The notes under the pieces: generated by a model
What the model saw: only the letters and a program-made list of their open reading frames with translations
Databases searched by the model: none
Told to the model about the DNA's origin: nothing
Made by a program: the position numbers and the translations under genes
From: an uncultured bacterium
Lineage (GTDB): Bacteria > Bacillota > Clostridia > Oscillospirales > Oscillospiraceae
Direction of reading: 5' to 3'
NCBI GenBank assembly: GCA_946548895.1
Contig: CAMNQF010000037.1
Span: forward strand, 1 to 33,941
DNA length: 33,941 nucleotides
In this document: piece by piece, positions 7,482 through 31,254 of the stretch
Layout: each line of letters begins with the position of its first letter
Numbering within the stretch: the stretch's first letter is position 1

Positions 7482-7493
7482 GCAAAATGGATG

Positions 7494-7522: not shown

Positions 7523-7556
7523 CATTTTGATGAAATGGCCAAGGAGGTTGCGCACC

Positions 7557-9050: not shown

Positions 9051-9053
9051 ACC

Positions 9054-10783: not shown

Positions 10784-10798
10784 TTCAGGAGGCGCCAC

Positions 10799-11374: not shown

Positions 11375-11387
11375 CACATTTTCCGAT

Positions 11388-11418
11388 GAGGGGGCGGTTT
11401 CAAGCGAGCCACCCCCTC
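11388..11418. terminator. Hairpin between convergent units
   Basis: GAGGGGGCGG pairs with CCACCCCCTC (one mismatch in 10 bp) around an 11-nt loop, 14 bp after the DUF308 stop. There is no strong U-tract. Its position between convergent genes suggests a bidirectional terminator. Confidence 0.5.
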
Positions 11419-11484
11419 GTTCCGTTTCGTACCCCCGGGGCGGGGCTGGCGGCGGACGGAAAGCCCCACAGGCGCAAGCGGTTC

Positions 11485-12962: not shown

Positions 12963-13375
12963 GGGCCCTGCCCGGCGTCATCGTGGTCAACATCTGGAAG
13001 AACATGGGCTACTATATGATTATCTACCTGGCCGCGCTTCAGGACATCCCCACCTCCCTGGTGGAGGCCGGGATGATCGACGGGGCCACCGCCTGGCAGC
13101 GGTTCTGGCGCATCAAATGGCCCCTGCTGCGCAACGCCACCTTCTTTGTGGCCATGATGCTCACCATCAACAGCTTCAAATCCTTCGACCTGATCTACGC
13201 CCTCACCGAAGGGGGGCCGGGCACCGCCACCACCCTGCTGCCCCAGTACATCTACAACCAGTCCTTCGTGTCCTGGGACTACGGCCGGGCCAGCGCGGCG
13301 GCCATGGTGCTGTTCGCTATTGTGGCGGTCATCACCCTGTTCCAGTTCCGGCTGGAAAAGAAATTCTCCGATTGA
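12962..13375 (+). pseudogene. ABC sugar permease lacking its N-terminal half
   Basis: The last ~138 residues of a CUT1 permease (usual length about 290). Homology-like sequence starts abruptly at WALPGVIVVNIWKNMGYYM, just before the EAA loop (EAGMIDGATAWQRFWRIKWPLL), and runs through the last helices to the stop. The first three helices and any start codon are missing; bases before 12962 encode the antisense of the kinase remnant. The open frame reaches back to 12842 only by chance. It is followed 16 nt later by the intact partner permease, so it was originally the first permease of that operon. The solute-binding protein gene expected here is absent too. Confidence 0.82.
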
Positions 13376-13391
13376 CTGAGGGGGGAGCCTT

Positions 13392-14225
13392 ATGCTGAAC
13401 AAAACGCCCGTCTGGAAAAAGGCGCTTCTGTATGTGGTCCTTATCCTGATCTGCGCCGCCACCCTGCTGCCCCTGGTGTGGATGCTGTCCGCGTCGCTGA
13501 AGCTGGACAAGGACGTGTTCCGCATCCCCATCGAGTGGATTCCCAGCGACCCGGCCTGGAGCAACTACCAGCGCATCTGGGACCAGGTGCCCATGCTCCG
13601 CTTTACCTTCAACACCTTCAAGGTCACCATCATCACCACCATCATCCAGGTGTTCACCTGTTCCTTTGCCGCCTACGGCTTTGCCAAGTGCAAGTTCCGG
13701 GGGCGCAACCTGCTGTTCCTCGTCTACGTGGCCACCATCGCCGTGCCCTGGCAGGTGTATATGCTGCCCCAGTACACCATGATGAACAACGTGTTCCACA
13801 TGGTGGACACCCACGCCGTGCTGGTCCTGCTCCACTCCTTTGACGCCTTTGGGGTGTTCCTGCTGCGCCAGTTCTGCATGGGCATCCCCGACGAGCTGCT
13901 GGAGGCCGCCCGCATCGACGGCTTGAGCGAGTACGGCGTCTACCGCCGGATTGTGCTGCCCCAGATGGGGCCGTCCATCGCCACCCTGGTGATCTTCACC
14001 TTCGTCAGCAATTGGAACGACTTTATGGGGCCCATGATCTACCTGAACAGCACCGAGCTGAAAACCGTCCAGCTGGGCATTCGGATGTTTATGGGCCAGT
14101 ACTCCACCGAGTACGGCCTCATCATGGCCGCCAGCGTGGTGTCCCTCATTCCGGTGATTATCGTGTTCCTGATTTTCCAGAAGCAGTTTGTCCAGGGCAT
14201 CGCCACCAGCGGCTTGAAAGGATGA
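13392..14225 (+). CDS. Carbohydrate ABC transporter permease, MalG/YesQ type
   Basis: A 277-residue CUT1 permease of full length with six predicted helices and the EAA motif LEAARIDGLSEYGVYRRIVLP (from about residue 170). The N-terminal ATLLPLVWMLSASLK segment and the C-terminal QKQFVQGIATSGLKG ending are family-typical. Start is supported by GAGGGGGGAG just upstream. Its partner permease upstream is truncated and no binding protein or ATPase is encoded nearby, so the importer is probably non-functional as represented here. The neighbouring DUF2264 and heparinase-like genes suggest that it once imported uronic-acid-containing oligosaccharides (inference). Confidence 0.88.
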   Translation: MLNKTPVWKKALLYVVLILICAATLLPLVWMLSASLKLDKDVFRIPIEWIPSDPAWSNYQRIWDQVPMLRFTFNTFKVTIITTIIQVFTCSFAAYGFAKCKFRGRNLLFLVYVATIAVPWQVYMLPQYTMMNNVFHMVDTHAVLVLLHSFDAFGVFLLRQFCMGIPDELLEAARIDGLSEYGVYRRIVLPQMGPSIATLVIFTFVSNWNDFMGPMIYLNSTELKTVQLGIRMFMGQYSTEYGLIMAASVVSLIPVIIVFLIFQKQFVQGIATSGLKG

Positions 14226-16108: not shown

Positions 16109-17257
16109 TCAGGGCAAAAATTCCAATGTTAACGCGCCGCCTACCGAAACCCGCGCCCGGTACAGGGTGCCCGGCCAGCTTTTCCGCAGATGGGGGTCCT
16201 GGATGGGGACGGCTTCCACCGCCGGTTCGCCGGCGCCCTCCAGGCGGATGGAGCCGGCCGGCGTCTCCAGCACACCGCCGCGCCAGACGGGGCGCCGGGC
16301 AAACAGCAGCGACAGCACGGCCTCTTCGCCGCCTTGATAGCGGTCCGTCACCGTCAGGCCCTTCCCGCCGCGCTCCAGCGCCACCCGGCGGGTGTAGGAG
16401 AACCCGCCCCCCGGATAGGTTGGGGCCAGCTCCAGCTCTATAACGGACGTGTTTCCCTCCCGGTACCGCTTCACGCCGGCGGGGGCGTACTGCCTGCCGC
16501 TGCCCTGGACGCGCCCGCCCACGGTGGGCAGATTGTGCCAGTCGGAGCGCATGGTCCAGATGGTGTACCGCTCGGGAGAAAAGGTCTTGGCGGTGTAGGT
16601 CTCCACCCCCACGTCGATGAGCAGGGGCTGTCCCCTGCGGTAGACGATGAGGCTCCCGGCGTCGCAATGGCCGTGGCTGACGCCGTTGTGCCCCGCCCGG
16701 AGGGAGACGCACCAGGTCTCGTCCCGGGCGATCCACAGCCCGGTGCTGGGGTAGAACACCTCCTCCCCGGGGGGGAGCGGGGCGGCCGGGCCGGCCAGCG
16801 CCTGCCCGCAGAGGGCGTCCAGCAGGCGCTCAAAGAGGCTTTTGCTGCCGGGCAGGTCCCGGGTTTCCCGGCGAGACACGTCCGCCGCCGCCAGCTCACA
16901 CAGGCCGGGGGCCCCGGTGCGGCGGCCAAAGAGGTATTCCCCCGCCCCCCGCAGCCCCGCCTTGGGCATACAGTCGGCGTAGTTCAGGTAATAATCCCCG
17001 TCCACATGGACGTTGACGATGTACGCGGCGATGTTTCGGAGCTTTTCCTCCTGGAACAGGGGGGCGAAATGGCCGCCGGAGACCCGGTCCAGCACCTCCA
17101 GCGCCCCCCACAGGGTGATCCCCGCGTGGTGGTAATATTCCGCGCCCTCCTCGCAGCAGCCGTCCGGGCCGTAGCCGTTCAGGAAACAGTCCAGGCTGTA
17201 AGCGGCCTGCTCCGCCACCCGGCGCTTCACGTCCTGGCCGTACCCGGAGGTAAACAC
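16109..17257 (-). pseudogene. Heparinase II/III-like protein lacking its N-terminal part
   Basis: About 380 residues of a heparinase II/III-type polysaccharide lyase/hydrolase. Recognisable blocks are GYGPDGCCEEGAEYYHHAGI (end of the helical toroid, with the conserved EGxxYYxH pattern), then the beta-sheet domain with HNGVSHGHCDAGSLIVYRRG and PLLIDVGVETYTAKTFSPER. Full members have roughly 250-300 additional N-terminal residues forming the toroid. Here family-like sequence begins near GYGQDVKRRVAEQ with no usable start codon; the frame continues upstream only into unrelated sequence overlapping the next gene's leader. A good minus-strand promoter survives at 17351-17379, so an internal deletion after the promoter fits. 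Downstream it converges on the DUF2264 gene, its likely former pathway partner. Confidence 0.72.
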
Positions 17258-17350
17258 CGCTCTCCCGCGCGCCGGAAAAGCGCCGGGGCGCCTGCCCGCG
17301 ACCTGCCGCGACAAATGGCTTCGCGAGGCGTTTTGGCTAGATTCGCAATC

Positions 17351-17379
17351 ATTATACACGGCGGGGCCAAGAATTACAA
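17351..17379 (-). promoter_or_regulatory. Sigma-A-type promoter reading toward the truncated heparinase gene
   Basis: On the minus strand, TTGTAA (17374-17379) and a perfect TATAAT (17351-17356) are separated by 17 bp, with transcription expected from about 17344. There is no intact start codon with a ribosome site between this and the heparinase-like sequence. Confidence 0.6.
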
Positions 17380-17511
17380 CTCCAATGCGAACGCGCAACT
17401 GGCCCTTCCCTTTGGGGCGGTTCCATGATAGAATATGCGGAGAGGGTAATTCCACGGGAAGCGGATTTTACGCGGAAGAACGATTGGGAAAGGAAGCGGG
17501 AGGGGCGCGGA

Positions 17512-18234
17512 GTGAAGAATATTGCCATTGTGGAGGACGAAAACGCCGCCGCCGAGCATCTGACGGCATTCATACAGCGGTACGCCGCCGAGTTTGGTCA
17601 GCAATTCAATATCACGCGGTTTTGCGACGGGGAGGCCTTCCTCCAAAACTACAAAACAGTTTACGCGGTGGTGTTTCTGGACATCCAGATGCCCCGGAAA
17701 AACGGCATGGACGCCGCCGTGGAACTGCGCCGTCACGATAAAAACGTTTCGATCATTTTCATCACGAACCTGGTGCAGTACGCCCTGAAGGGCTACGAGG
17801 TGGACGCGGTGAGCTTTTTGCTCAAGCCGGTAAACTACTACGATTTCTCCCTGAAATTCAAGAAGGCGCTGGACATCTACCTGATGAACGAGGAGCGGAG
17901 CTTTACGGTGAACGCCCCCGGCGGGCTGTGCCGCATCTCCACGGACAAGCTGATGTATGTGGAAATCATCAGCCACCGGCTTCACTACCACCTGATCGAC
18001 GACGTGATCGAGATGACCGGCGTGCTGTCCAATGTGGAACAGGAGCTGGGGGCTTACGGGTTTTTGCGGTGCAACACCTGCTACCTGGTCAACCCAAAGT
18101 TCATCGTGCGGGTGAAGGGCTCCGAGGTGCAGGTGGGGGACCGCACCCTCCAGATCAGCCGCCCGAGGCGGGCCGCGTTTATGGAGGGGCTGACCAACTG
18201 GTACGCCGGGGCGGGGGGTGGGAGCCATGGCTGA
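17512..18234 (+). CDS. LytTR-family response regulator
   Basis: A 240-residue regulator. Residues 1-120 are the receiver (IVEDENAAAEHL acidic pocket, phospho-acceptor Asp57 in VFLDIQMP, Lys in FLLKPVNYYDF). Residues ~140-235 are a LytTR DNA-binding domain (GGLCRISTDKLMYVEIISHR, then RCNTCYLVNPKFIVRVKGSEV). GTG at 17512 is chosen because GGAGG lies 8 nt upstream and the receiver starts there; the frame runs back to 17425 without family features. It overlaps the kinase gene by 8 nt, so the two form a pair of the AgrA/AgrC class. A possible -10 (TAGAAT, 17429-17434) lacks a good -35. The GH16, GT2 and GH3 genes that follow on the same strand are its likely targets (inference). Confidence 0.9.
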   Translation: MKNIAIVEDENAAAEHLTAFIQRYAAEFGQQFNITRFCDGEAFLQNYKTVYAVVFLDIQMPRKNGMDAAVELRRHDKNVSIIFITNLVQYALKGYEVDAVSFLLKPVNYYDFSLKFKKALDIYLMNEERSFTVNAPGGLCRISTDKLMYVEIISHRLHYHLIDDVIEMTGVLSNVEQELGAYGFLRCNTCYLVNPKFIVRVKGSEVQVGDRTLQISRPRRAAFMEGLTNWYAGAGGGSHG

Positions 18235-19591
18235 GGTCAATGGAATCTACCAAAAAATTATCCTGGAATTCCTGTTTGAGCTGTATGTGTTTTACGCCCT
18301 CACCACGCGAAAGCTGAACCGGGCGCCCCGGTTCTGGGCGCGGGCCCTGGGCGGCGCCGGCGCGGTTTTGGCGCTGGCCTATGGCGCGGCCCTGCTCTAC
18401 CGCTCCTTTGGAAACACGGCCCCGGGACGGATCGGCATTTACATCGCCCTGTTCGCCGCCACCGTGGCCCATGCGCGGCTGTGCTTTGACGAGTCCTTCC
18501 CCACGGTCCTGTTTTGCTGCAATGTGGCCTACGCCGCCCAAAACCTGTGTTATAAGCTGTACTTGATTCTATGGTGCGGCGGGGAGGCGCTGCGCTGGTA
18601 TGACGGCTGGGGCTGGCGGTTTGACTTCAACTACCACCTGATGTACTACAGCTTTTTCGCCCTGGCGGTGACGGCGGTCTATTGGGCGTTTATCCGCCCC
18701 CTGCTCCGGCATATGTCCGGCGGGCGGCTGAATTATCAGACCTTTGCCATTGCCGTCCTGGTACTGAGCATCACGGTCATCCTGTGCTCGGTGGAGGACG
18801 TCTATTTTGCCCAGCTGTGCGTGGGCCGAGAAAACCGGTTTGAGGTCCCGGCGTACTTCTTCCTGCGGCAGTCAGGCAACCTGTTTTCGGTGATGTGCTG
18901 CGCCATCGTCCTGCTCCTCACATCCAGGACCGTGGAGCAGCGGGAACTTCAGCAGGAGGTGGAATACCTCCAGCACGCGGTGCATCAGAGCGAGCTGCAA
19001 TACGAAATCTCCCGGGACACCATCGACCTGATTAACGTCAAGTGCCACGACATTCGGTACAAGCTGGGCGCGCTGACGGCGCAGGGAGAGCGGATGCGGC
19101 CCGAGGCGGTGGCCGACCTTCAAAAGAGCATCTCCATCTACGACGCCAAGGTGGAGACGGGCAACCAGTTCTTAGACGTCCTGCTCACGGAAAAAAGCCT
19201 CTACTGCGAGCAAAACGGCATCACGTTTTCCTGCATGGCGGACGGGGCCAGGCTCACCTTTATGGACGACGGCGACCTGTACTGCCTGTTCGGAAACATC
19301 ATCGACAACGCCCTGGAAGCGGTCAAGGCCATTGAGGACCAGCAGCGGCGCATTATCAACCTGGTGGTGAAGGCCCGGGGCGATATGCTCGTGATCCAGT
19401 CGGACAATTATTTTGACGGGGAACGCGCCTTCGAGGGCGGCCTGCCCGTCACCACCAAGGCGGACCGAAATTATCACGGGTTCGGGATGCGGAGCATTCG
19501 GATGATCGTCCACAAGTACGAGGGGGAACTGACGGCCCATGTGGCGGACGGCATCTTCCACCTGAATATTTTGTTCAGTCTCGCCCCATAA
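18227..19591 (+). CDS. HPK10/AgrC-type sensor histidine kinase (GHKL)
   Basis: A 454-residue membrane sensor. Six or seven hydrophobic helices fill residues ~8-235, with little extracellular loop sequence, as in peptide- or membrane-sensing AgrC/VirS-like kinases. A coiled-coil-like linker (EQRELQQEVEYLQHAVHQSE) leads to the phospho-acceptor His274 in NVKCHDIRYKL, followed by a GHKL ATPase domain with N-box NIIDNALEAV and G-box GFGMRSI. The ATG at 18227 overlaps the end of the regulator gene, with a G-rich ribosome site 8 nt upstream. No AgrB/AgrD-type peptide-signal genes are nearby, so its stimulus is unknown. A strong terminator follows at 19663. Confidence 0.9.
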   Translation: MAEVNGIYQKIILEFLFELYVFYALTTRKLNRAPRFWARALGGAGAVLALAYGAALLYRSFGNTAPGRIGIYIALFAATVAHARLCFDESFPTVLFCCNVAYAAQNLCYKLYLILWCGGEALRWYDGWGWRFDFNYHLMYYSFFALAVTAVYWAFIRPLLRHMSGGRLNYQTFAIAVLVLSITVILCSVEDVYFAQLCVGRENRFEVPAYFFLRQSGNLFSVMCCAIVLLLTSRTVEQRELQQEVEYLQHAVHQSELQYEISRDTIDLINVKCHDIRYKLGALTAQGERMRPEAVADLQKSISIYDAKVETGNQFLDVLLTEKSLYCEQNGITFSCMADGARLTFMDDGDLYCLFGNIIDNALEAVKAIEDQQRRIINLVVKARGDMLVIQSDNYFDGERAFEGGLPVTTKADRNYHGFGMRSIRMIVHKYEGELTAHVADGIFHLNILFSLAP

Positions 19592-19662
19592 ATGACAGAT
19601 TTGGAAGAAATTTGTTCCCTGCCGCCCTTTGGTGTGCAAAGTAAGTAAAAATCGTGCAGTTT

Positions 19663-19705
19663 AAGGAACGCCCATTGCCAGCGGGCGTTCCTTTTATTAT
19701 ATTAT
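19663..19705 (+). terminator. Intrinsic terminator after the two-component genes
   Basis: AAGGAACGCCC pairs perfectly with GGGCGTTCCTT (11-bp stem, 9-nt loop), followed by TTTTATTATATTAT. It separates the regulator pair from the GH16 gene, which therefore needs its own promoter in 19700-19830; I see no consensus promoter and no clear pair of LytTR boxes there. Confidence 0.82.
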
Positions 19706-19843
19706 CGACAGAAAGAGCGGTACGCGGCGTGAATCCTTTGTAGCAAACGTAAAAAAATGCCAGCCGGGCACGGCGGCCTGCGAACGTGGTCACAAAGCGC
19801 GGCGACGCGCTGTGAATAAATATGTGAGAAGGAGAAACGAGCG

Positions 19844-21391
19844 ATGAAAAAGAAGATTCTTGCGATGCTGCTGGCTTTGGCCATGACCGTGGCGCTGGCC
19901 GCCTGCCAGCCCAGCGCCAGCCAGCCTACCGGCACGCCCTCCGGGGCCGGCGGCGGGGAGAGCGCCGCCCCCGTGGACGCCCCCATGCTGGCCGACTTTT
20001 CCGCCGGGGCGGTGGAGGCGTTCTTCCCCTCCGACGGCTGGTCCAACGGCAGCGTGTTCAACGTGTGGTGGAAGGGCGACATGGTCACTTATTCGGACAA
20101 CCAGCTCCACCTGGGCATCGCCGACGCCAAGGGCGAGGTGGAACAGGGCTACTACGGCGGCGAGGCCCGCACGGGGCTTTACTACGGCTACGGCGACTAC
20201 ATCGTGAAAATGAAGCCCGCCAAGGCGGAGGGCACCGCCAGCACCTTCTTCACCTGCACCGGCCCCTACGACATCAACGCGGAGGGCAACCCCAACCCCT
20301 GGGACGAAATCGACATCGAGTTTTTGGGCAAGGACACCACCGGCGTCCAGTTCAACTACTTTGTCAACGGCCAGGGAGGCCACGAGTACTGGTACGACCT
20401 GGGCTTTGACGCCTCCGAGGAGTTTCACGAGTACGGCTTCCGCTGGAGGGAGGACTCCATCTCCTGGCTGGTGGACGGCAAAGAGGTGTACACCGTCACC
20501 GCCGGCGCGGACACGCCCTTGCCCTCCACCCCGGGGCGTATTCTGATGAACTACTGGTGCGGCACCCCCGACGCCGAGGGCTGGATGGGCAAGTACGCGC
20601 TCAACGGCGCCACCGCCGACTACCAGTGGGTCAAGACCTCCGCCCGGGGCCGGGAGCTGGTGCCCACCGAGGGCGGCAGCGGGGACGGGACCATGGACGG
20701 CCTGGACGTGAACTTTGCCAACGGCGCGGCGGCGGACGGCAGCGTGTTTGCCTCTGACGGCTGGTCCAACGGCAGCGTGTTCAACGTGTGGTGGAAGGGC
20801 GACATGGTCACTTATTCGGACAACCAGCTCCACCTGGGCATCGCCGACGCCAAGGGCGAGGTGGAACAGGGCTACTACGGCGGCGAGGCCCGCACGGGGC
20901 TTTACTACGGCTACGGCGACTACATCGTGAAAATGAAGCCCGCCAAGGCGGAGGGCACCGCCAGCACCTTCTTCACCTGCACCGGCCCCTACGACATCAA
21001 CGCGGAGGGCAACCCCAACCCCTGGGACGAAATCGACATCGAGTTTTTGGGCAAGGACACCACCGGCGTCCAGTTCAACTACTTTGTCAACGGCCAGGGA
21101 GGCCACGAGTACTGGTACGACCTGGGCTTTGACGCCTCCGAGGAGTTTCACGAGTACGGCTTCCGCTGGAGGGAGGACTCCATCTCCTGGCTGGTGGACG
21201 GCAAAGAGGTGTACACCGTCACCGCCGGCGCGGACACGCCCTTGCCCTCCACCCCGGGGCGTATTCTGATGAACTACTGGTGCGGCACCCCCGACGCCGA
21301 GGGCTGGATGGGCAAGTACGCGCTCAACGGCGCCACCGCCGACTACCAGTGGATCAAGACCACCGCCACCGGCGTCAGCCTGGGCGGCTGA
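19844..21391 (+). CDS. Lipoprotein with two tandem lichenase-type GH16 domains
   Basis: A 515-residue surface lipoprotein (LAAC lipobox, Cys21). After a Ser/Gly/Pro linker come two GH16 domains, residues ~47-266 and ~285-513. Both are close to Bacillus-type lichenases that cut mixed-linkage (1,3;1,4)-beta-glucan, with the catalytic core DEIDIEFLGKDTT: nucleophile Glu155, Asp157, acid/base Glu159 in domain 1, and Glu396, Asp398, Glu400 in domain 2. Both therefore look active. Aromatic substrate-cleft residues (GYYGGEARTGLYYGYGDYIV, HEYWYDLGFDAS) are kept. The central 597 bp of the two domains are identical, whereas domain edges and the linker (VPTEGGSGDGTMDGLDV) differ. ATG is preceded by AAGGAG. 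Followed by a hairpin and a GT2 gene; no transporter is adjacent. Confidence 0.93.
   Translation: MKKKILAMLLALAMTVALAACQPSASQPTGTPSGAGGGESAAPVDAPMLADFSAGAVEAFFPSDGWSNGSVFNVWWKGDMVTYSDNQLHLGIADAKGEVEQGYYGGEARTGLYYGYGDYIVKMKPAKAEGTASTFFTCTGPYDINAEGNPNPWDEIDIEFLGKDTTGVQFNYFVNGQGGHEYWYDLGFDASEEFHEYGFRWREDSISWLVDGKEVYTVTAGADTPLPSTPGRILMNYWCGTPDAEGWMGKYALNGATADYQWVKTSARGRELVPTEGGSGDGTMDGLDVNFANGAAADGSVFASDGWSNGSVFNVWWKGDMVTYSDNQLHLGIADAKGEVEQGYYGGEARTGLYYGYGDYIVKMKPAKAEGTASTFFTCTGPYDINAEGNPNPWDEIDIEFLGKDTTGVQFNYFVNGQGGHEYWYDLGFDASEEFHEYGFRWREDSISWLVDGKEVYTVTAGADTPLPSTPGRILMNYWCGTPDAEGWMGKYALNGATADYQWIKTTATGVSLGG
20033..20629 (+). repeat. Direct repeat copy 1 within the GH16 gene (597 bp)
   Basis: Line-by-line comparison shows 597 bases identical to 20756-21352, offset 723 bp, including all third codon positions. 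Identity stops abruptly at both ends (C versus T at 20032/20755; G versus A at 20630/21353) although homologous but diverged protein sequence continues beyond. Confidence 0.97.
20756..21352 (+). repeat. Direct repeat copy 2 within the GH16 gene (597 bp)
   Basis: Identical partner of 20033-20629. It covers most of the second GH16 domain, including its catalytic core. Confidence 0.97.
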
Positions 21392-21411
21392 CGGGCCTGT
21401 TATAGACATCG

Positions 21412-21443
21412 GGGTTCCCGCCCCAAACCGGGGGCGGGAACCC
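21412..21443. terminator. 13-bp hairpin between GH16 and GT2 genes
   Basis: GGGTTCCCGCCCC pairs perfectly with GGGGCGGGAACCC around a 6-nt loop, 20 bp after the GH16 stop. It is followed by A residues, not T, so it is likely a weak terminator or an mRNA-stabilising hairpin within the operon. No separate promoter for the GT2 gene is visible. Confidence 0.55.
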
Positions 21444-21472
21444 AAAAAAGAATTGGATGAGTGTGGAATAAC

Positions 21473-22807
21473 ATGGGATATTTGACAACTCTTGCAATTG
21501 TTTTTATTGCCATCTGGTGCTGTTTTTTCCTCCTGCTGTTCCATTACGGCGTGTTTGCCCTGATTGGGGTGTTCCGGCGGAAAACCTATCCCAAGGCGGA
21601 CCGCCTGCTGAAATACGGTGTTGTCATCGCGGCCAGGAACGAGGAGGCGGTGATCGGCCCCCTGCTGGACAGCATCCGGGCAAACGCCTACCCCCAGGAA
21701 AAGCTGGTGGTATTTGTGGCCGCCCACAACTGCACCGACCGCACCGCCCAGATTGCCCGGGCGCACGGCGCCAATGTCTACGAGTATGACAACCCGGCGG
21801 AACGGACGGCGGGCTACGCATACCGCTACCTGTTCGACAGGATTAACGCCGAGTGGGGCGGCGCGGGGATCGACGGCTTTTTCATCATCAACGCCGACAA
21901 CGTCCTCGCCCCGGACTACATCTCCAAAATGAACGACGCCTTCGTGGCCACCGGCGGGGAGCACGTGATCACCTCCTACCGCAACTCCCGCAACTTCGGC
22001 AGCAACTATATGTCCTGCCTGTACGGCATCTACTTCATCTCCGCCTGCCGCTTTGAGGCCCGGGGCCGTACGGTGTGCGGGTGCAGCACCCGGGTGTCCG
22101 GCACCGGATACCTCTTTCCCCCGGCGCTGGTGGAACGGGGCTGGGAATATGTCACCCTCACCGAGGACTGGGAGTTCACCGCCGACCAGTTGGCCCGGGG
22201 CAGCAAGGTGCTCTACTGCGACGAGGCGGAGTTCTTTGACGAGCAGCCCCTCACCGTGAAGGTAATGCTCCGCCAGCGGCTGCGCTGGGCCAGGGGACAC
22301 ATGATCGTATTTTTCACCCGGTTCCGGGAGCTGATGAAAAGCCTGTTTTCCAGGGGAAACGGGCTGGACGGGAAGGGACGGTTTTCCGTGTTCGATATCT
22401 CCGCCAGCATTCTGCCCCTGGGCGTCATCAGCGTGGCCCTGCTGCTGGTCCAGCTGGGGTGCGTCGCCCTGTGCCCCCTGTTCGGGTATGACGCGGAGCG
22501 GGTCTGGCGGGTCTACGGGCTGGTATCCCTGGCGCTGTTCGCGCTGTCCTATGGGCTCACCATGCTGGGCGCGGTGCTGCTGATTTTCCTGGAGCGGGCC
22601 CGCATCCGAAACGTGGGGGCGGGCAAACTGGCGGCGGCGGTGGCGCTATGGCCCTTATTCCTGCTGGTAAACGTATTTTTGGACGTGGCCGCGCTGTTCC
22701 TCCGAAACTTGGAGTGGAAAGTGATCCCCCATGTGGGCGCTCCAAACCCGGAGTGGGTCCGGCGGCGGAGCGTCTGTGAGCGAGATCCCAATAAAACGAT
22801 GATTTAG
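21473..22807 (+). CDS. Membrane-bound GT2 family glycosyltransferase (processive beta-glycan synthase-like)
   Basis: A 444-residue enzyme with one or two N-terminal TM helices (residues ~5-33), a cytosolic GT-A domain (~48-300) and three C-terminal helices, an architecture of cellulose/chitin/hyaluronan-synthase-like enzymes that polymerise and extrude a chain. Motifs are VVIAARNEE, AAHNCTD (residues 83-89), NADN at 140-143 where a DxD motif normally sits, TED at 230-232 and QRLRW at 268-272 (QxxRW, the processivity signature). The metal-binding first Asp is Asn here. ATG 21473 is chosen; GTG 21461 is possible and neither has a strong ribosome site. Flanked by a lichenase lipoprotein and a GH3 enzyme, it may make a beta-glucan. 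Product inferred, not shown. Confidence 0.85.
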   Translation: MGYLTTLAIVFIAIWCCFFLLLFHYGVFALIGVFRRKTYPKADRLLKYGVVIAARNEEAVIGPLLDSIRANAYPQEKLVVFVAAHNCTDRTAQIARAHGANVYEYDNPAERTAGYAYRYLFDRINAEWGGAGIDGFFIINADNVLAPDYISKMNDAFVATGGEHVITSYRNSRNFGSNYMSCLYGIYFISACRFEARGRTVCGCSTRVSGTGYLFPPALVERGWEYVTLTEDWEFTADQLARGSKVLYCDEAEFFDEQPLTVKVMLRQRLRWARGHMIVFFTRFRELMKSLFSRGNGLDGKGRFSVFDISASILPLGVISVALLLVQLGCVALCPLFGYDAERVWRVYGLVSLALFALSYGLTMLGAVLLIFLERARIRNVGAGKLAAAVALWPLFLLVNVFLDVAALFLRNLEWKVIPHVGAPNPEWVRRRSVCERDPNKTMI

Positions 22808-22818
22808 GAGGGTTTCCT

Positions 22819-25800
22819 GTGGCAAAAGAAAAAGGAAAAAAACGCTTGAGCGCAAAGGCGTTTACCGCCATCGTCGCGTCCCTGCTGGCGGTTCTTTTGG
22901 CGTTCTCCCTTGTGCTGTCCGTCGTCACCACCTCCAGGTTTGACCTGGTGCTCCGGGATATCTTCGGCGAGACGGATTTCAGCGGCGGCGGCCCGGACCA
23001 TGGCGTTGACGCGGCCTATTACACCAGGGATATCGCGGACTCCAAGGAGCTCCAGGCCGCCGAGCAGGCCTATGCCCGCAGGGCGGGGGCCGAGGGCTTC
23101 GTGCTCCTCTACAACAAGGCGGAGGGCGGCAAGGGCCTGCCCGTGGCGGCGGGATCCAAGTTGAGCCTGTTCTCCTCCTCCTCGGTGGACCTGCTGGCCG
23201 GCGGCACCGGCTCCGGCGTGTCCACCATCTCCAGCGATATGCGCACCGCCCTCACCGAGCAGGGCTTCTCCGTGAATGAGGCGCTGTGGAAGTTCTACAG
23301 CGACAACCACGGCACCTACACCCGGGGCGGCGGCTCCATCATGTACGGCGGCGCGGAGGACTGGACCATCCGGGAGGCCCCCGTCTCCGCCATCCCCAGC
23401 GCCGCCAAAAGCGAGGCGGAGGGCACCATCCCCGTGTTCTTCCTGGCCCGCACCGGCGGCGAGGGCCGGGACCTGGGCCGCTACATGGGTGAGTGGACCA
23501 AGGAGGCCGCGGACCGCCAAAAGCACTATCTGGAGCCCAACTCCGTGGAGCTGGAGGTCATCCAGTACCTGAACGATAACTTTGACAACGTGATCCTGGT
23601 GGTCAACACCAACAACGCCTTCGAGCTGGGCTGGGTGGCCGACTACCCCAACATCAGCGCGGTGCTGTGGGCCCCCGGAGCCGGCGGCGACACCTGCCGC
23701 TCCATCGCCGACGTTCTCAGCGGGGCGGTCAACCCCTCCGGCCACCTGGTGGACACCTTCGCCTATGACGCCTTTTCCTCCCCCGCCATGCAGAACATGG
23801 GGGATATGATGCTGGTCAACGGCGGGCAGGATGTGGAGGCCGCCGTGTTCTATGACGAGGGCATCTACGTGGGCTACAAGTACTATGAGACCCGCTACTT
23901 CGACAAGGCGCTGAACCAGGGCAACCCCGGGGACTATGACTACGCGGCCACCGTGCAGTACCCCTTCGGTTACGGCGTCTCCTACACCACCTTTGAGTGG
24001 TCTGATTTTAAGGTGGGTCAGATGGACGCGGACGGCAATATTGAGCTCAGTGTAACAGTGAAGAACACCGGCGCGGTTACGGGCCGGGACGTGGTGCAGG
24101 TCTACCTCAACGCGCCCTACACCGATTATGACAAGGCCAACCACATTGAGAAGTCCGCCGTCTCCCTGGTGGGCTTTGAAAAGACCGGCGAGCTTCAGCC
24201 CGGCCAGTCCGAGACAGTCACTGTCGCCGTGAACCGCAAGGACTTCATCTCCTACGACGACGTGAACGCCAAAACCTACATCCTGGAGGCGGGGGACTAT
24301 CTTCTCACCGCGGCGGAGAACGCCCACGCCGCCGCCGACAACTTCCTGGCCTATAGCGGGCAGGAGGTGGAGCCCCTGTTCGGCGGGGCGGACGCCTCCT
24401 TTGTGGGCGAGTGGACCTACAGCTACAGCGGCAACGGCGGGGTGGACAACGCAACCTACGCCGTATCCCTCGCCGGCGTGGAGGTGACCAACCAGTTCGA
24501 CCACGCGGTGTACGACGAGCTCACCCCCCGGGACCAGTACCTGACCCGCCAGGACTGGGCGGGCACCTTCCCCCAGACCCACGGCAACCAGGACAGCAAG
24601 CGCCAGAGCCCCTTCAGCGAGAGGAACGGCTTCACTTGGGAGGTGGAGGTGTCCGACGCCATCCGGGACGCCATCCGGGCCAAGGGCGTGGGCGCGTCCA
24701 TGAACCCCATGACCGAGGAGGAGGCCGCCGCCATGGCGGGCCAGTACGGCAGGAACGGCGATTTGGAGCTCATCGACTTCCGGGGCCGTGACTTCGACGA
24801 GGTGGAAGCCGAGGGCGGCTGGGACGCCCTTATCGACCAGATGGACGTGAGCGAGCTGGAGGCCATCATCCGCAACGGCGGCTACCAGACCCTGGGCTCC
24901 GCCAACGTCTCCAAGCCCCGGGCTATCGACTACGACGGCCCCTCCGGGCTGAACGAGGGCGGCATCACCCATGAGCCCTACTCCATCACCTATCCCTGCG
25001 CCACCAACCTGGCCGCCAGCTGGGACCGGCAGAACTCCTACGACCACGGCTACTACGTGGGCGAGGACGCCCTGGCCGCCGACGGCAACTGGGGCAGCCA
25101 TCAGTATGTGGGCCTCATCACCGGCTGGTACGCCCCCGCCATGAACATCCACCGCACCCCCTTCGCCGGGCGCAACTTTGAGTACTACTCCGAGGACGGC
25201 TTCATGTCCGGCGAATTCGCCCGGGAGGCCTCCGTGGCCTGCGCCGAGAAGGGCGTGTACGCCTACATCAAGCACTTCGCCCTCAACGACCAGGAGGACC
25301 ACCGCAGCCACGTGGCCACCTTCTCCAACGAGCAGGCCATCCGGGAGATCTACCTGAAGCCCTTCCAGACCTGCATCGAGGAGCGGGGAACCACCCCCAT
25401 CAAAGTCCAGGAGTATGATGAGAGCTCCAAGTCCTACACCGAAAAAGAGGTGGAGATTCCCGCCGTCATGGCGGTGATGTCCTCCTTCAACCGCATCGGC
25501 TGTACCTGGGCGGGGGGCAACTACAATCTGCTCACCGGGGTGCTGCGCCGTGAGTGGGGCTTCGACGGCACCGTCATCACCGACTACGACGGCGGCGGCA
25601 CCATGGACACCGAGCAGTGCGTCCGGGCCGGCGGCGACCTGAAGCTCACCGGCTTCGAGGTGAACGCGCCCATCGACGTGAGCAATCCCGCTTCCCAGTA
25701 CTTTGCCCGGCAGGCCATCAAGCACATCCTGTACACCACCGTGAACTCCAACGCCATGAACGGCATTGTCCACGGCACCTCCGTGGGTGAACTGCCCTTC

Positions 25801-25911
25801 GCCAACTATTGGTTCATCCTCATCGGGGAGGCCGTGGTGGCCGCGGGGCTCACCGCCTGGGGCGTGGCGGCCATCGTGAAGCGCTGGAAGAAGGAGAAGG
25901 CCGGAAACTGA
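22819..25911 (+). CDS. GH3 glycosidase with reversed domain order and membrane anchors at both ends
   Basis: A 1030-residue cell-surface enzyme, probably a beta-glucosidase. Order: N-terminal TM helix (~15-38); GH3 C-terminal-type alpha/beta sandwich (~60-380, with NVILVVNTNNAFELGWV and SVELEVIQYLNDNF); Fn3-like domain (~395-475, NIELSVTVKNTG); then the GH3 N-terminal-type TIM barrel (~590-960), with KHFALND and the nucleophile Asp922 in TVITDYDGGG; and a C-terminal TM helix (~998-1020) with a basic tail. This swapped order is known for some Ruminococcus/Butyrivibrio beta-glucosidases. The GTG start has AGGAGGG 6 nt upstream, overlapping the GT2 stop, so translation is coupled. The catalytic part lies outside, suited to trimming glucan at the surface. 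No lipobox. Confidence 0.9.
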   Translation: MAKEKGKKRLSAKAFTAIVASLLAVLLAFSLVLSVVTTSRFDLVLRDIFGETDFSGGGPDHGVDAAYYTRDIADSKELQAAEQAYARRAGAEGFVLLYNKAEGGKGLPVAAGSKLSLFSSSSVDLLAGGTGSGVSTISSDMRTALTEQGFSVNEALWKFYSDNHGTYTRGGGSIMYGGAEDWTIREAPVSAIPSAAKSEAEGTIPVFFLARTGGEGRDLGRYMGEWTKEAADRQKHYLEPNSVELEVIQYLNDNFDNVILVVNTNNAFELGWVADYPNISAVLWAPGAGGDTCRSIADVLSGAVNPSGHLVDTFAYDAFSSPAMQNMGDMMLVNGGQDVEAAVFYDEGIYVGYKYYETRYFDKALNQGNPGDYDYAATVQYPFGYGVSYTTFEWSDFKVGQMDADGNIELSVTVKNTGAVTGRDVVQVYLNAPYTDYDKANHIEKSAVSLVGFEKTGELQPGQSETVTVAVNRKDFISYDDVNAKTYILEAGDYLLTAAENAHAAADNFLAYSGQEVEPLFGGADASFVGEWTYSYSGNGGVDNATYAVSLAGVEVTNQFDHAVYDELTPRDQYLTRQDWAGTFPQTHGNQDSKRQSPFSERNGFTWEVEVSDAIRDAIRAKGVGASMNPMTEEEAAAMAGQYGRNGDLELIDFRGRDFDEVEAEGGWDALIDQMDVSELEAIIRNGGYQTLGSANVSKPRAIDYDGPSGLNEGGITHEPYSITYPCATNLAASWDRQNSYDHGYYVGEDALAADGNWGSHQYVGLITGWYAPAMNIHRTPFAGRNFEYYSEDGFMSGEFAREASVACAEKGVYAYIKHFALNDQEDHRSHVATFSNEQAIREIYLKPFQTCIEERGTTPIKVQEYDESSKSYTEKEVEIPAVMAVMSSFNRIGCTWAGGNYNLLTGVLRREWGFDGTVITDYDGGGTMDTEQCVRAGGDLKLTGFEVNAPIDVSNPASQYFARQAIKHILYTTVNSNAMNGIVHGTSVGELPFANYWFILIGEAVVAAGLTAWGVAAIVKRWKKEKAGN

Positions 25912-26971: not shown

Positions 26972-28717
26972 ATGGACATTTTTGATGCGCTTTCCCTGGC
27001 CGGCGGCCTGAGCCTGTTTCTGTTTGGCATGACCCTGATGGGGCAGGCCCTGGAGCGGCGGGCGGGAGGACAGCTCCGCGCCCTGCTGGAAAAGCTGTCC
27101 ACCGGCAAGCTGGCCGGGCTCCTGACGGGCCTGGGGGTCACGGCGGTCATACAGAGCTCCTCCGCCACGACGGTGATGGTGGTGGGCTTCGTCAACTCCG
27201 GCCTCATGACCCTGAAGCAGGCCATCAACATCATCATGGGCGCCAACATCGGCACCACGGTCACGGCGTGGATCCTGAGCCTGGCGGGAATCGACGGCGG
27301 AAACCTGTTCGTGCAGCTGTTAAAGCCATCTTCCTTCACGCCGGTGCTGGCCCTGGTTGGGATCATCTTCTATATGTTCTTCAAGAGCGCGGAGAAAAAA
27401 GACACGGGCATGATCCTGCTGGGATTCGCCACCCTGATGTACGGCATGGAGGCCATGTCCGGCGCGGTATCCGGCCTGCGGGATATCCCGGCTTTCCAGC
27501 AGATGTTCCTCGCGTTCAAAAACCCAGTGCTGGGCGTGTTGGCCGGGGCGGTCCTCACGGCGGTGATTCAATCCAGCTCCGCCTCCGTGGGCATTTTGCA
27601 GGCGCTGGCCGCCACCGGGCAGGTGTCCTATGGCGCGGCGGTCCCCATCATCATGGGGCAGAACATCGGCACCTGCGTAACCGCCATGATCTCTTCCGTG
27701 GGGGCCAATAAAAACGCCAAGCGGGCCGCGCTGGTTCACCTCTCCTTCAACATCATCGGCACGGCGGTGTGGCTGACGGCGTTCTGCCTGCTGCGGGCCA
27801 TACTCCATCCCGCGCTGCTGGACGAACCCGCCTCCCTGGTGGGCATCGCCGTGTCCCACTCGGTATTCAACATCCTGTGCACCCTCCTCATGCTGCCGCT
27901 GTCCGGCGGGCTGGAGCGGCTTGTCACCTTCCTGGTGCCCGACACCCGGCAGCCGGAGATGTTCGAGGAGCTGGACGAGCGCCTGCTCGCCACGCCGTCC
28001 ATCGCGCTGGAGCGGTGCCATACGGTGGCCAACCACATGGCCGGGGACGCCGTGACGTCGCTGAAGGAGGCGCTGTCCGCCCTGGAGGAGCCCTCTCCCG
28101 AGCTGGCCGCGTCCATTCGGGAGAAGGAGGACCGAACCGACCATTACGAGGATATCCTGGGCACGTACCTGGTGAACCTGAGCGCCCGGCAGATCAGCGG
28201 GGCGGACAGCCGGGAGGCAGCCAAGCTGCTGAAGCTGATCGGCGATTTTGAGCGGATTGCCGACCACGCGGTCAATCTTCTGGAGTCCGCGGAGGAGCTG
28301 CGGAGCAAGAAGCTGCGGCTTACCGACGCGGCGGCAAAGGAGCTGGCCACGATTTCCGCGGCGGTCAGCGAGATTCTGGACTTGTCCCTCACGGCCTTCC
28401 TGGAAAACGACCTGGCCGCCGCCGCCAGGGTGGAGCCGCTGGAACAGGTTGTAGACCAGCTGAAGGAACAGCTGCGCACGCGCCACATCCTCCGCCTGCA
28501 AAAGGGGGACTGCACCATTGACGCGGGCTTTTCCTGGCTGGACCTGCTGACCAACCTGGAGCGCACGGCGGACCACTGCTCCAACATCGCGGGGTGCGTG
28601 ATCGACGCCGCCCACGACACCATGAACCTGCACCAGTCCCTGCGGGCGGTGCGCAGCGACAGCGAGGAATTCCGGGAGCGCTACAGGGAGTATACCCGCA
28701 AGTATTCGCTGCTCTGA
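26972..28717 (+). CDS. Na+/phosphate cotransporter with C-terminal PhoU-like domain
   Basis: A 581-residue membrane protein. Residues 1-315 carry the duplicated NaPi-II core with the diagnostic inverted pair of QSSSA motifs: QSSSATT at 61-67 and QSSSAS from residue 200. Residues ~345-560 form two PhoU-like helical bundles (EDRTDHYEDILGTYL and LIGDFERIADHAVNLLE), common in bacterial NptA-type proteins. It would import phosphate driven by sodium. GGAAGG lies upstream of the ATG and a TTTACA-repeat Pho box precedes it, so induction by phosphate limitation is expected. It is followed by a PhoP/PhoR-type pair with its own promoter at 28752. Full length; no defects seen. Confidence 0.93.
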   Translation: MDIFDALSLAGGLSLFLFGMTLMGQALERRAGGQLRALLEKLSTGKLAGLLTGLGVTAVIQSSSATTVMVVGFVNSGLMTLKQAINIIMGANIGTTVTAWILSLAGIDGGNLFVQLLKPSSFTPVLALVGIIFYMFFKSAEKKDTGMILLGFATLMYGMEAMSGAVSGLRDIPAFQQMFLAFKNPVLGVLAGAVLTAVIQSSSASVGILQALAATGQVSYGAAVPIIMGQNIGTCVTAMISSVGANKNAKRAALVHLSFNIIGTAVWLTAFCLLRAILHPALLDEPASLVGIAVSHSVFNILCTLLMLPLSGGLERLVTFLVPDTRQPEMFEELDERLLATPSIALERCHTVANHMAGDAVTSLKEALSALEEPSPELAASIREKEDRTDHYEDILGTYLVNLSARQISGADSREAAKLLKLIGDFERIADHAVNLLESAEELRSKKLRLTDAAAKELATISAAVSEILDLSLTAFLENDLAAAARVEPLEQVVDQLKEQLRTRHILRLQKGDCTIDAGFSWLDLLTNLERTADHCSNIAGCVIDAAHDTMNLHQSLRAVRSDSEEFRERYREYTRKYSLL

Positions 28718-28751
28718 AATGACGCGGGAACCGGCGGCAGCGGGGTTTCCG

Positions 28752-28780
28752 TTGATCGGGGCCGGTTCATGTGCTATGAT
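28752..28780 (+). promoter_or_regulatory. Promoter of the response regulator/kinase genes
   Basis: TTGATC (28752-28757), 17-bp spacer, TATGAT (28775-28780). It would allow basal regulator expression independent of the Pho-box promoter upstream. Confidence 0.6.
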
Positions 28781-28843
28781 GAAGCCGGACAGGACAGCTG
28801 TGCCAGCCCGCCGCGGCGGTTCAGCCATGGAGAGAGGTGCGAT

Positions 28844-29518
28844 ATGATTTTTTGCGTAGAAGACGACGAGAGCATTCAGAGCCTGGAACTCTATGCCCTC
28901 CGCGCCGCCGGCTTTGAGGCCCGCGGCTTCACGGACGGCAGCTCCCTTTGGGAGGCGATGCGCGCGGAGCGGCCGGACCTTGTCATCCTGGACGTCATGC
29001 TGCCGGGAATCAACGGCGTGGAGCTGCTGAGGCAGATGAAAGCCGACGCCTGCGCCCGCGACATCCCGGTCATCATGGCCACGGCCAAGGGCGCGGAGTA
29101 CGACAAAATCAAAGGTCTGGACCTGGGCGCGGACGATTACCTGGTCAAGCCCTTTGGCATGATGGAGATGGTATCCCGCGTCAAGGCGGTGCTCCGGCGG
29201 TGCCAGCCCAGGCAGAAACGGGAGGTATTGGCGGCGGGCGGCCTGGTTATGGATCTGGCGGAGCACACCGTCACGGCGGACGGAGAGCGGATCGCCCTCA
29301 CCTTCAAGGAATTTGAGCTGCTCCGGCTGTTCCTCTCCGCCCCCGGCGTGGCGTTTACAAGGGAACGGCTCCTGGCGAGCGTCTGGGGGGGAGAGTACTC
29401 CGGCGAGACGCGGACGGTGGATATGCACATTCGGACCCTGCGGCAAAAGCTGGGGCGCTATGGGGTCATGGTCGAGACCGTCCGAAACGTGGGCTACCGC
29501 CTGGAGGTGAATCCATGA
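28844..29518 (+). CDS. phoP: OmpR/PhoB-type response regulator (PhoP-like)
   Basis: A 224-residue regulator. The receiver domain (1-118) has acidic residues Glu6-Asp7-Asp8, phospho-acceptor Asp50 in LVILDVMLPG and the conserved lysine in DDYLVKPFG. A winged-helix DNA-binding domain (~130-222) carries the usual KEFELLRLF, RTVDMHIRTLRQKLG and VRNVGYRLE motifs. ATG 28844 is chosen (AGAGAGG 6 nt upstream; the receiver starts directly), not the in-frame GTG-type start at 28769. It overlaps the kinase gene by ATGA. The adjacent phosphate cotransporter and Pho box make control of phosphate genes the best reading; the symbol rests on that context. Confidence 0.88.
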   Translation: MIFCVEDDESIQSLELYALRAAGFEARGFTDGSSLWEAMRAERPDLVILDVMLPGINGVELLRQMKADACARDIPVIMATAKGAEYDKIKGLDLGADDYLVKPFGMMEMVSRVKAVLRRCQPRQKREVLAAGGLVMDLAEHTVTADGERIALTFKEFELLRLFLSAPGVAFTRERLLASVWGGEYSGETRTVDMHIRTLRQKLGRYGVMVETVRNVGYRLEVNP

Positions 29519-31254
29519 GCAGAAAAATTTTCCGTTCGGCCGTGGCAACCGCGGCGGCTGTTCTGCTGGCCAGCCTTGTGATTATACTGGGCTGCCTGTA
29601 CGACTACTTTGGCGCCGTTCAGGCCAGCCAGCTCAAGGACGAGCTGCGGCTGGCGGCCTACGCGGTGGAGGAGAGCGGGCAGAACTATCTGGAGCGGATG
29701 ACCGCCCAGGACTACCGCTATGCCTGGACGCCGGAATACCGGCTGACCTGGATCGCTTCGGACGGGACCGTGCTGTTCGACACGGACGAGCCCGCGGAGG
29801 GCATGGAGAACCACGGAAACCGCACGGAGGTCCGGGAGGCGTTCGCCAAAGGGGAGAGCAGCAGCGTCCGCTACTCCGACACCTGGGCGGAACGGACGCT
29901 GTACTACGCCAGGGCGCTGAACGACGGGACCGTGCTGCGTATCTCCATCCGCCAGGTGACTGTGCTGGCCCTGGTGCTGGTGATCCTCCAGCCCATTTTG
30001 CTGGTGGGGGTTCTGGCCGTGGTTCTCTCCGCCGTCCTGGCCAACCGAATGGCCAAGCGGATCGTCCAGCCGCTCAACTCCCTGGACCTGGACCACCCGC
30101 TGGAAAACGACGCCTACGAGGAGCTGTCCCCGCTGCTGCGGCGGATCGGGCAGCAGCGGGGGCAGATCAGCGACCAGCTGCGGGAACTGCGGGCCAGGAC
30201 CGACGAGTTTGAGCAGATCACGGGACACATGAACGAGGGGCTGGTGGTGCTGGACCAGAAGGGGGCGGTTTTGAGCATCAACCCGGCGGCGCAGAAGCTG
30301 TTCGGCGCGGACCGCTCCTGTATCCGGCAGGATTTTTTGGCGGTGGACCACAGCTGTGAAATGAGCCAGGCGATTCTGGCCGCCCTGGAAAACGGGCACA
30401 GCGAGATACGGGCGGGGCGGAACGGCCGTGAAATACAATTTGACATCAGCCGCATTGAATCGGAGGGCACTGTGATCGGGGCGGTGCTGCTGGCATTCGA
30501 CGTGACGGAGCAGGCGTTCGCCGAGCGCAACCGCCGGGAATTTACCGCCAACGTATCCCATGAACTGAAAACCCCCCTCCAGTCCATCACCGGCAGCGCC
30601 GAGCTGCTGGAGAACGGGCTTGTGAAGGAGGAGGATATTCCGCAGTTTATCGGGCTCATACGCACGGAGGCCGCGCGGCTGGTCACGCTGGTGGAGGACA
30701 TCATTCACCTCTCCCAGCTGGACGAGGGCATCGCGCCGGCCCGGGAAACCGTGGACCTTTGGGAGACGGCGAAGGATGTGGCGTCCGTCCTGCGGGACGG
30801 CGCGGCGGAAAAAGGCGTCCAAATCTCCGTCACGGGGGAGCCCGTCTCCATCGAGGGCGTCCGCAGCTTTCTGCACGAGATGATCTATAACCTCTGCGAC
30901 AACGCCGTCAAATACAACGTGGAAAACGGGTCTGTGGAAATCGAGGTTTCCCAGGGGGGACACGAGGCCGTGGTGGCCGTCCGGGATACGGGAATCGGCA
31001 TTCCCGCGGAGTATCAGTCCCGGATATTCGAGCGGTTCTTCCGGGTGGATAAGAGCAGGTCCAAGGCCTCCGGCGGCACTGGGCTGGGGCTGTCCATCGT
31101 GAAGCACATCGCCCAGTACCATCACGGGACCATCGGCCTGCAAAGCGAGGCCGGAAAAGGCACGGTCATTTCCGTTACGCTCCCGCTCACGCGGGAACCC
31201 GGGCCCGCGGCCGAAAGCGGCGGGCAGTCAGCGAAAGCGGGGGACGGGTTTTAA
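29515..31254 (+). CDS. phoR: PhoR-type sensor histidine kinase with PAS domain
   Basis: A 579-residue sensor. It has TM helix ~8-30, an extracellular domain of about 115 residues, TM helix ~150-175, a HAMP-like stretch, PAS domain (~228-335, beginning FEQITGHMNEGLVVLDQKG), HisKA with His349 in FTANVSHELKTPLQSI, and HATPase_c with N-box NLCDNAVKYN, DTGIGIP, and GGTGLGLSIVKHI. This is the PhoR/WalK-like layout. The start overlaps the regulator stop as ATGA (29515-29518). The stop codon lies in the loop of a 12-bp hairpin. Phosphate sensing is inferred from the transporter and Pho box upstream; PhoR-type kinases usually sense through the PAS domain and transporter/PhoU partners. Confidence 0.88.
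   Translation: MSRKIFRSAVATAAAVLLASLVIILGCLYDYFGAVQASQLKDELRLAAYAVEESGQNYLERMTAQDYRYAWTPEYRLTWIASDGTVLFDTDEPAEGMENHGNRTEVREAFAKGESSSVRYSDTWAERTLYYARALNDGTVLRISIRQVTVLALVLVILQPILLVGVLAVVLSAVLANRMAKRIVQPLNSLDLDHPLENDAYEELSPLLRRIGQQRGQISDQLRELRARTDEFEQITGHMNEGLVVLDQKGAVLSINPAAQKLFGADRSCIRQDFLAVDHSCEMSQAILAALENGHSEIRAGRNGREIQFDISRIESEGTVIGAVLLAFDVTEQAFAERNRREFTANVSHELKTPLQSITGSAELLENGLVKEEDIPQFIGLIRTEAARLVTLVEDIIHLSQLDEGIAPARETVDLWETAKDVASVLRDGAAEKGVQISVTGEPVSIEGVRSFLHEMIYNLCDNAVKYNVENGSVEIEVSQGGHEAVVAVRDTGIGIPAEYQSRIFERFFRVDKSRSKASGGTGLGLSIVKHIAQYHHGTIGLQSEAGKGTVISVTLPLTREPGPAAESGGQSAKAGDGF

Follow-up and report, generated by a model that had tools for sequence, protein, structure and literature searches.

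A LytTR-linked GH16, GT2 and GH3 locus of an uncultured Oscillospiraceae bacterium as a candidate for making and trimming a surface beta-glucan

Results

A five-gene locus with a putative make-and-trim role

The subject of this study is a set of five genes, all on the forward strand of a 33,941-nucleotide stretch of DNA (the window; contig C37) from an uncultured Oscillospiraceae bacterium whose genome of 3.81 Mb lies in 116 contigs. The genes encode a LytTR response regulator, a GHKL kinase, a GH16 lipoprotein, a GT2 glycosyltransferase and a GH3 glycosidase. Our preferred reading, which we hold tentatively and regard as possible rather than probable, is that they form a LytTR-switched operon that makes and trims a surface beta-glucan. 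We adopted it because the genes are linked across a clade, the GT2 is under purifying selection and matches polysaccharide synthases in fold, the GH16 domains carry an ExDxE strand, the promoter has a recurring geometry, and such operons have a precedent. Loci are labeled L, genomes G and contigs C throughout, and the window's own genome is G000.

According to this reading, the GHKL kinase and LytTR regulator would act at a direct-repeat promoter before the GH16 gene and thereby turn on GH16, GT2 and GH3 together. The GT2 would build a beta-glucosyl chain in the cytoplasm, with a nucleotide sugar as donor, and pass it through the membrane; the lipoprotein lichenase would cut the chain as it emerges, and the double-anchored GH3 would take glucose off the chain ends. 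Processivity of the GT2, glucose as the sugar it transfers, and its product as the substrate of the GH16 protein are all inferred. The precedent is that synthase-dependent exopolysaccharide operons, the clostridial ccsZABHI among them, usually contain a hydrolase, as set out in the relevant parts of PMC7710045. The features of the locus are as follows.

17512..18234, + strand: LytTR response regulator, GTG start (PF00072, 4.4e-16; PF04397, 2.1e-10)
18218..19591, + strand: GHKL sensor kinase with a multi-transmembrane N-terminus (PF14501, 2.9e-22)
19844..21391, + strand: lipoprotein with two lichenase-type GH16 domains (two PF00722 stretches, lipobox LAAC)
21461 (or 21473)..22807, + strand: membrane GT2 of 448 aa with 4 hydrophobic helices (PF13641, TED 234-236, QRLRW 272-276)
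22819..25911, + strand: GH3 exo-glycosidase with permuted domains and two membrane anchors (PF01915, PF00933, hydrophobic segments)

Open reading frame positions and Pfam matches confirm the five-gene content given by an earlier, first-pass annotation of this DNA. The pair that it placed directly upstream of the structural genes is likewise present, with PF00072, PF04397 and PF14501 each above cut-off, as a LytTR regulator and a GHKL kinase; the name HPK10 is that annotation's own label. The regulator's reading frame is open already from an ATG at 17425, and the kinase gene starts within the end of the regulator gene. PF14501 is the sole Pfam match in the kinase up to an E value of 0.01, and five hydrophobic segments make up its N-terminus. 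At the other end of the locus, the GT2 stop codon (22805-22807) overlaps AGGAGG (22806-22811), and the GH3 GTG start (22819) comes next, a spacing from which the proposed translational coupling of GT2 to GH3 is judged plausible.

The gene set is retained through three gene orders

A scan for the GT2 in a collection of genome contigs gave 72 loci, 16 of which form the clade of the window (12 by their position in the tree described below; L023, L032, L034 and L046 by identity, 60-79%). By phmmer, GH16 is present at 14 of the 16 clade loci and GH3 also at 14, and a LytTR of the window's subtype accompanies 11 of 16 as opposed to none of the 56 others. At 60 bits, no GH16, GH3, LytTR or kinase of these kinds was found at the 56 non-clade loci, of which only 23 extend 4 kb or more to each side. 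Where a clade locus misses GH16 or GH3, the contig ends there: L034 spans no more than 3.6 kb, L032 begins shortly ahead of the LytTR gene, and L027 begins within a protein of 709 aa that BLAST clusters with the GH16 proteins. Neighboring genes came from a simple codon-usage caller, which misses some (the GT2 of L055; the LytTR of L118, L121, L122 and L124).

Three arrangements occur: LytTR-HK-GH16-GT2-GH3, where HK is the kinase (the window's order, in 9 genomes), (LytTR)-HK-GH16-GH16-GH3-GT2, and GH3-LytTR-HK-GT2-GH16. That the genes were reordered and yet kept together speaks for a functional set. Since other genomes carry the set too, in various orders, and the GT2 is under purifying selection, we reject both chance grouping and an accident of one genome, and the functional grouping suggested by the first-pass annotation stands. 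Across 42 genomes of the genus, GT2 orthologues (at least 63% identity) occur in 8 and the lichenase in 11, the 8 falling within the 11; in each of these 11 the GH16 gene follows this kinase at this locus, and no lichenase was found elsewhere in the 42. Of the three lichenase bearers without a GT2 orthologue, G034 has lost most of the gene by an in-frame deletion, and in G027 and G031 the contig breaks off within the GH16 gene. The genomic linkage is stronger than a reading of the sequence alone could know.

The GH16 lipoprotein resembles lichenases

Two lichenase-type GH16 domains on a lipoprotein had been proposed, and the following comparisons agree: both PF00722 stretches, the lipobox, the catalytic strand EIDIE in each domain, and solved structures, the best match being the beta-glucanase 3wvj (1e-54) and the seven best all 1,3-1,4-beta-glucanases or beta-glucanases. 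ExDxE is the unbulged strand form of lichenases (the bulge rule). A motif-free search of 22 loci found 37 GH16 domains, and ExDxE is present in all 35 that cover the catalytic strand; L034 alone among these loci had no GH16 domain. The whole protein scores 468.8 bits with the NCBIfam BglS model (cut-off 300), which it passes because the scores of its two domains, 242.1 and 238.7, add up. Each domain also scores with the ExoK model. As judged from these features, the protein looks suited to cutting beta-glucans, and may act in the manner of a lichenase.

The protein shares the catalytic strand with BglS-type lichenases and differs in being a tandem lipoprotein with a near-identical tract.

20028..20644, + strand: 617-bp tract, first copy (3 mismatches to the second)
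20751..21367, + strand: 617-bp tract, second copy (3 mismatches to the first)

The two domains stem from an old duplication. The copies are 97% alike in the window as opposed to 75-90% in eight other genomes of the same gene order, and in a domain tree the window's second domain (copy b) groups with its first (copy a), which points to gene conversion of b by a or to assembly collapse.

The subthreshold scores of the single domains and their ExoK matches also bear on a reading we consider very improbable, in which the polymer is another beta-linked one, such as one built from N-acetylhexosamine, and the specificity of the lichenase-like GH16 has shifted. It gains from the GT2s of about 29% identity on a Lactococcus and an Enterococcus plasmid (L150 and L151), each of which is followed by wecB, encoding a UDP-GlcNAc 2-epimerase; a third neighborhood, from Paenibacillus, holds no wecB. 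It is opposed by the seven beta-glucanase matches, and no amino-sugar gene was seen in the locus.

A LytTR-like promoter element precedes the GH16 gene

The interval between the kinase and GH16 genes contains three elements.

19636..19666, + strand: LytTR-like imperfect direct repeat GCAAAGTAA / GCAGTTTAAGG, starts 20 bp apart (geometry in 12 genomes)
19663..19693, + strand: dyad AAGGAACGCCC...GGGCGTTCCTT, which probably ends the kinase transcript and overlaps the promoter that follows (from comparison with L094 and L095)
19675..19703, + strand: putative sigma-70 type promoter TTGCCA-17-TATATT for the structural genes (sequence and 12-genome comparison)

In the alignment, the conserved block consists of the direct repeat, TTGCCA 19 bp past the start of the second repeat, a 17-bp spacer and TATATT. 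The 12 genomes were picked because the element was found there; besides G006, G027 and G031, they include all 9 genomes that share the gene order of the window. Among them, the repeat spacing is 20-21 bp, the second repeat lies 19 bp from the -35 hexamer, and the TTG, the 17-nt spacing and a -10-like hexamer are kept, with TATAAT exact in 6. The repeat resembles the LytTR consensus, and LytTR may bind the putative site at 19636-19666.

The dyad had been a candidate for the LytTR operator itself. We rejected it in that role and read it as the probable kinase terminator, since dyad and promoter stand apart in L094 and L095. Within the window's own genome, the 17-bp core, which overlaps the dyad, has one exact place and three with two mismatches (four for the reversed control), while the repeat plus -35, with the dyad excluded, has one exact place and two with one mismatch (10 for the reversed control).

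Farther along the locus, between GH16 and GT2 (21409-21445), a GC-rich hairpin without a U-run on the coding strand was seen by eye; it could set the ratio of GH16 to GT2 in the mRNA.

The GT2 model matches polysaccharide synthases and an archaeal mannosyltransferase in fold

With its nearest named relative by GT2 (L021, 91% identity, in an assembly named 'Oscillospiraceae bacterium') as reference, the GT2 has a ratio of nonsynonymous to synonymous substitution rates (dN/dS) of 0.135, indicating purifying selection; the value for the LytTR gene is 0.052. The GT2 keeps the TED aspartate D236, the metal-binding D146 and QRLRW. The processive-type motifs and membrane helices noted at first pass are therefore present; the donor-site aspartates, however, are changed, as described below. 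Among 58 family members TED is kept throughout and QxxRW in 56.

Fold comparison with VIA-align 2, which re-scored the top 1000 hits of Foldseek, gave a near full-length match of the GT2 model to cellulose and hyaluronan synthases, and the modeled protein is a candidate for a membrane polysaccharide-synthase fold. Hyaluronan synthases (cvHAS and Xenopus HAS1) are with BcsA among the closest solved folds, aligned over both transmembrane and glycosyltransferase parts; they differ in sequence (12-16% identity in the fold alignments) and in the donor-site aspartates, which are changed in the window GT2. PcManGT of Pyrobaculum calidifontis, an enzyme of the N-glycan pathway, ties in Z with hyaluronan synthase. 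It shares with the window GT2 a GT-A domain and a small transmembrane bundle, and is described in the part of PMC10569066 concerned as an archaeal mannosyltransferase with three antiparallel transmembrane helices.

The GH3 belongs to a recurrent, double-anchored type

Both PF00933 and PF01915 are above cut-off in the GH3, whose domain order (GH3_C, Fn3, GH3_N) is permuted relative to the beta-glucosidase 2x40. Its TDYDG aligns with MSDW of 2x40, so that an Asp is present at what we take to be the nucleophile position. The solved beta-glucosidases 5wug and 5k6l seem to share the C-domain-first order, judging by a C-domain match that sets in close to the start of the chain; the window GH3 is distinguished by an anchor at both ends. 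The double anchoring claimed earlier is borne out by hydrophobic segments at residues 18-36 and 999-1017, and such segments lie near both ends of all 11 GH3s tested, the window's included. A GH3 of 88% identity adjoins another LytTR pair on contig C4. In a Pfam scan of LytTR neighbors (91 of 92 neighbors, the 25 most frequent of 116 families), GH3 is the only glycosidase family among those 25 (3 of 91).

Two further observations concern GH3 surroundings. In G023 (L117), a different GT2 (PF00535, 438 aa) lies directly downstream of an 85% identical GH3 on the same strand. Esterase-like genes adjoin the GH3 module in G033, and in G032 they occur downstream of the locus.

Discussion

Catabolic sensing as an alternative

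Several findings weigh against the make-and-trim reading, and concern the company kept by LytTR and GH3, the reach of the promoter element, and the GT2 with its relatives. The window's own genome has 23 LytTR matches and 27 GH3 genes (31 matches less 4 merged second pieces of one gene), and a GH3 lies within 7 kb of 14 of the 23 LytTR genes, as opposed to a mean of 2.3 and a maximum of 9 in 20000 random placements under a chance model that ignores contig ends. No PF13641 GT2 was found at the other 13 of these places. LytTR plus GH3 therefore looks like a repeated module here, an array of sensors with surface glycosidases (own genome; L116, L155-L172), and the window locus is the one such place that also holds a GH16 and a PF13641 GT2. 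Many of the GH3 genes lie near other LytTR genes where no such GT2 was found, so a synthase is not required to account for GH3 and LytTR.

At the 10 loci that follow the other two gene orders, no such promoter element was found, which limits the case for LytTR control to the window's order. For that order, the regulatory link of the first-pass annotation is supported by a conserved LytTR-like element behind the kinase. In G006 the promoter stands directly before GH3, and GH16 and GT2 are missing. An in-frame deletion in G034 (L093, about 8368-8575) has left about 72 codons of the GT2, with LytTR, kinase, GH16 and GH3 open.

These findings suit a catabolic surface module. In it, dietary beta-glucan would be sensed by the LytTR/kinase pair and broken down at the cell surface by the lichenase and the GH3, and the GT2 would be a side gene under the same control, perhaps one that remodels a glycan or lipid of the envelope. 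Such a module, supplemented by a GT2, fits the LytTR-GH3 pattern almost as well, and we regard it as somewhat less likely than the make-and-trim reading. Besides the 14 LytTR-GH3 places and the retention of GH16 and GH3 after GT2 loss in G034, it gains from six other genomes of the genus in which an 80-85% identical GH3 lies behind a GHKL kinase without this GH16 and GT2, and from the esterase-like genes of G033 and G032. Against it stand the retention of the GT2 with GH16 through three gene orders, purifying selection on the GT2, the restriction of the lichenase to this locus among the 42 genus genomes, and the lack of an importer in the locus, the ABC parts upstream going with GH32 and PfkB genes. 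Moreover, the PF00535 GT2 behind the GH3 of G023 means that the pairing of GH3 with a GT2 may not be accidental.

Donor site, relatives and a possible glycolipid role of the GT2

Compared with known synthases, the alignment places A88/H89 where the uridine-binding Asp is expected and N144 in place of the ribose-binding Asp, the roles of these residues being those given for the RiGT2 donor site in the portion of PMC10374906 that treats it. The window GT2 thus lacks the D,D,D,QxxRW signature of the RiGT2/Cgs type. Across the family (n=58), positions 89 and 144 read D/D in 11, H/D in 6, H/N in 41 and D/N in none, and the two nucleotide-site aspartates were apparently lost in order, uridine Asp first and ribose Asp second. 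This two-Asp change poses a sharp biochemical question that can be tested.

A tree of 53 sequences (catalytic core, LG+G4, 278 columns) splits the GH16/GH3-linked GT2s from all others with 100% support. It omits six collected GT2s (four pSymB, two own-genome) and the own-genome GT2 matches L127, L130 and L131. The GT2 family stands apart from BcsA, BgsA and the Clostridial CelA-like L145 (99%), the only match in 196 genomes of the class at E 1e-40; BgsA joins BcsA at 76%, and these two join L145 at 100%. With the BcsA equivalog model TIGR03030, the window GT2 reaches 27 bits against a cut-off of 699. Membership in the BcsA/BgsA group was therefore rejected. No PilZ domain was found among the Pfam matches of the GT2 up to E 0.01, and neither a translocation partner nor a PilZ domain was seen in the locus. 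The kinship with known mixed-linkage glucan synthases, as suggested at first pass, is not supported, in view of the 99% split from BcsA, BgsA and L145, the absence of PilZ from these matches and the missing uridine Asp.

Of the 56 non-clade loci, 17 have a gene weakly similar to digalactosyldiacylglycerol (DGDG) synthase directly upstream of the GT2, and 6 have an LtaS-like gene nearby, one representative of each having been scored. In genus members without the locus, paralogues of 35-38% identity lie between argS and rimP-nusA (L097-L105, L111, L112). The neighbors of lipid and lipoteichoic acid type keep alive an unlikely alternative, a glycolipid or lipoglycan locus in which a membrane lipid, as anchor or carrier, would receive a single sugar or a small number of them from the GT2, and GH16 and GH3 would trim the exposed head group or chain. 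A lichenase, however, should require several glucoses in a row and not a mono- or disaccharide head group. A DGDG-synthase-like partner elsewhere in the own genome was set aside, none having been found in a search run without a positive control, and this too counts against a glycolipid. The first-pass annotation had named grouping with N-glycan or lipid glycosyltransferases as a danger to its reading; the lipid-type neighbors and the mannosyltransferase tie touch on this point and stop short of such a grouping.

Comparison with known systems and significance

As far as the sections of PMC10374906 on it go, the mixed-linkage glucan synthase RiGT2/Cgs of Romboutsia ilealis (CED93608.1), which has been expressed in yeast, is likewise a Gram-positive membrane GT2 with TED and QxxRW, and a product relevant to lichenase is suspected for the window GT2 as well; the window GT2 differs by A88/H89, N144 and the lack of PilZ. 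To its GT2 the window locus attaches a lichenase, a GH3 and a LytTR pair. BgsA, the mixed-linkage glucan synthase of Sinorhizobium meliloti, also has TED and QxxRW, and groups with BcsA and the Clostridial CelA-like protein, apart from the window GT2. Its C-terminal part binds cyclic di-GMP, according to a passage in PMC10374906. The ccsZABHI operon, to the extent covered in PMC7710045, is clostridial too and pairs a membrane synthase with its cognate surface hydrolase; it differs in that CcsA is BcsA-like, CcsZ is a GH5 enzyme, and putative O-acetylation genes are present. The conserved GT2-hydrolase linkage would suit a synthase-dependent exopolysaccharide operon if the GT2 polymerizes.

A bolder form of the make-and-trim reading, which we think improbable, makes the GT2 the founder of a new Gram-positive class of beta-glucan synthases, with the polysaccharide-synthase fold, a rebuilt nucleotide site that may take a donor other than UDP-glucose, and a LytTR/GHKL switch instead of cyclic di-GMP. 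If the GT2 does make a glucan, some gut Clostridia would have a route to surface beta-glucan that is unrelated in sequence to the known ones and has its own lichenase and switch. This would bear on biofilm, on gut immune sensing, and on whether a lichenase can be taken as a sign of fiber digestion wherever it turns up in a gut genome, as is assumed. The genome-wide pairing of LytTR with GH3 suggests a Gram-positive arrangement for sensing glycans. In one open-access library we found no description of that arrangement, of LytTR with a lichenase or a GH3, or of a GH16-GT2-GH3 cluster.

Neighboring genes

Between 3 and 12 kb upstream of the locus lie an ABC solute-binding protein gene (5759-7432) and an ABC permease gene (13392-14225), with GH32 and PfkB genes between them. 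The statement that no sugar importer is attached holds for the locus itself, with these ABC parts in its wider surroundings. The region 5759-14225 has the make-up of a fructan/sucrose-type uptake cluster. Directly upstream of the locus, on the opposite strand (16112-17455, -), is a gene for a protein with a Heparinase II/III-like C-terminal domain. Downstream (26972-31254), a Na/Pi cotransporter-PhoU fusion is followed by a PhoB/PhoR-like pair.

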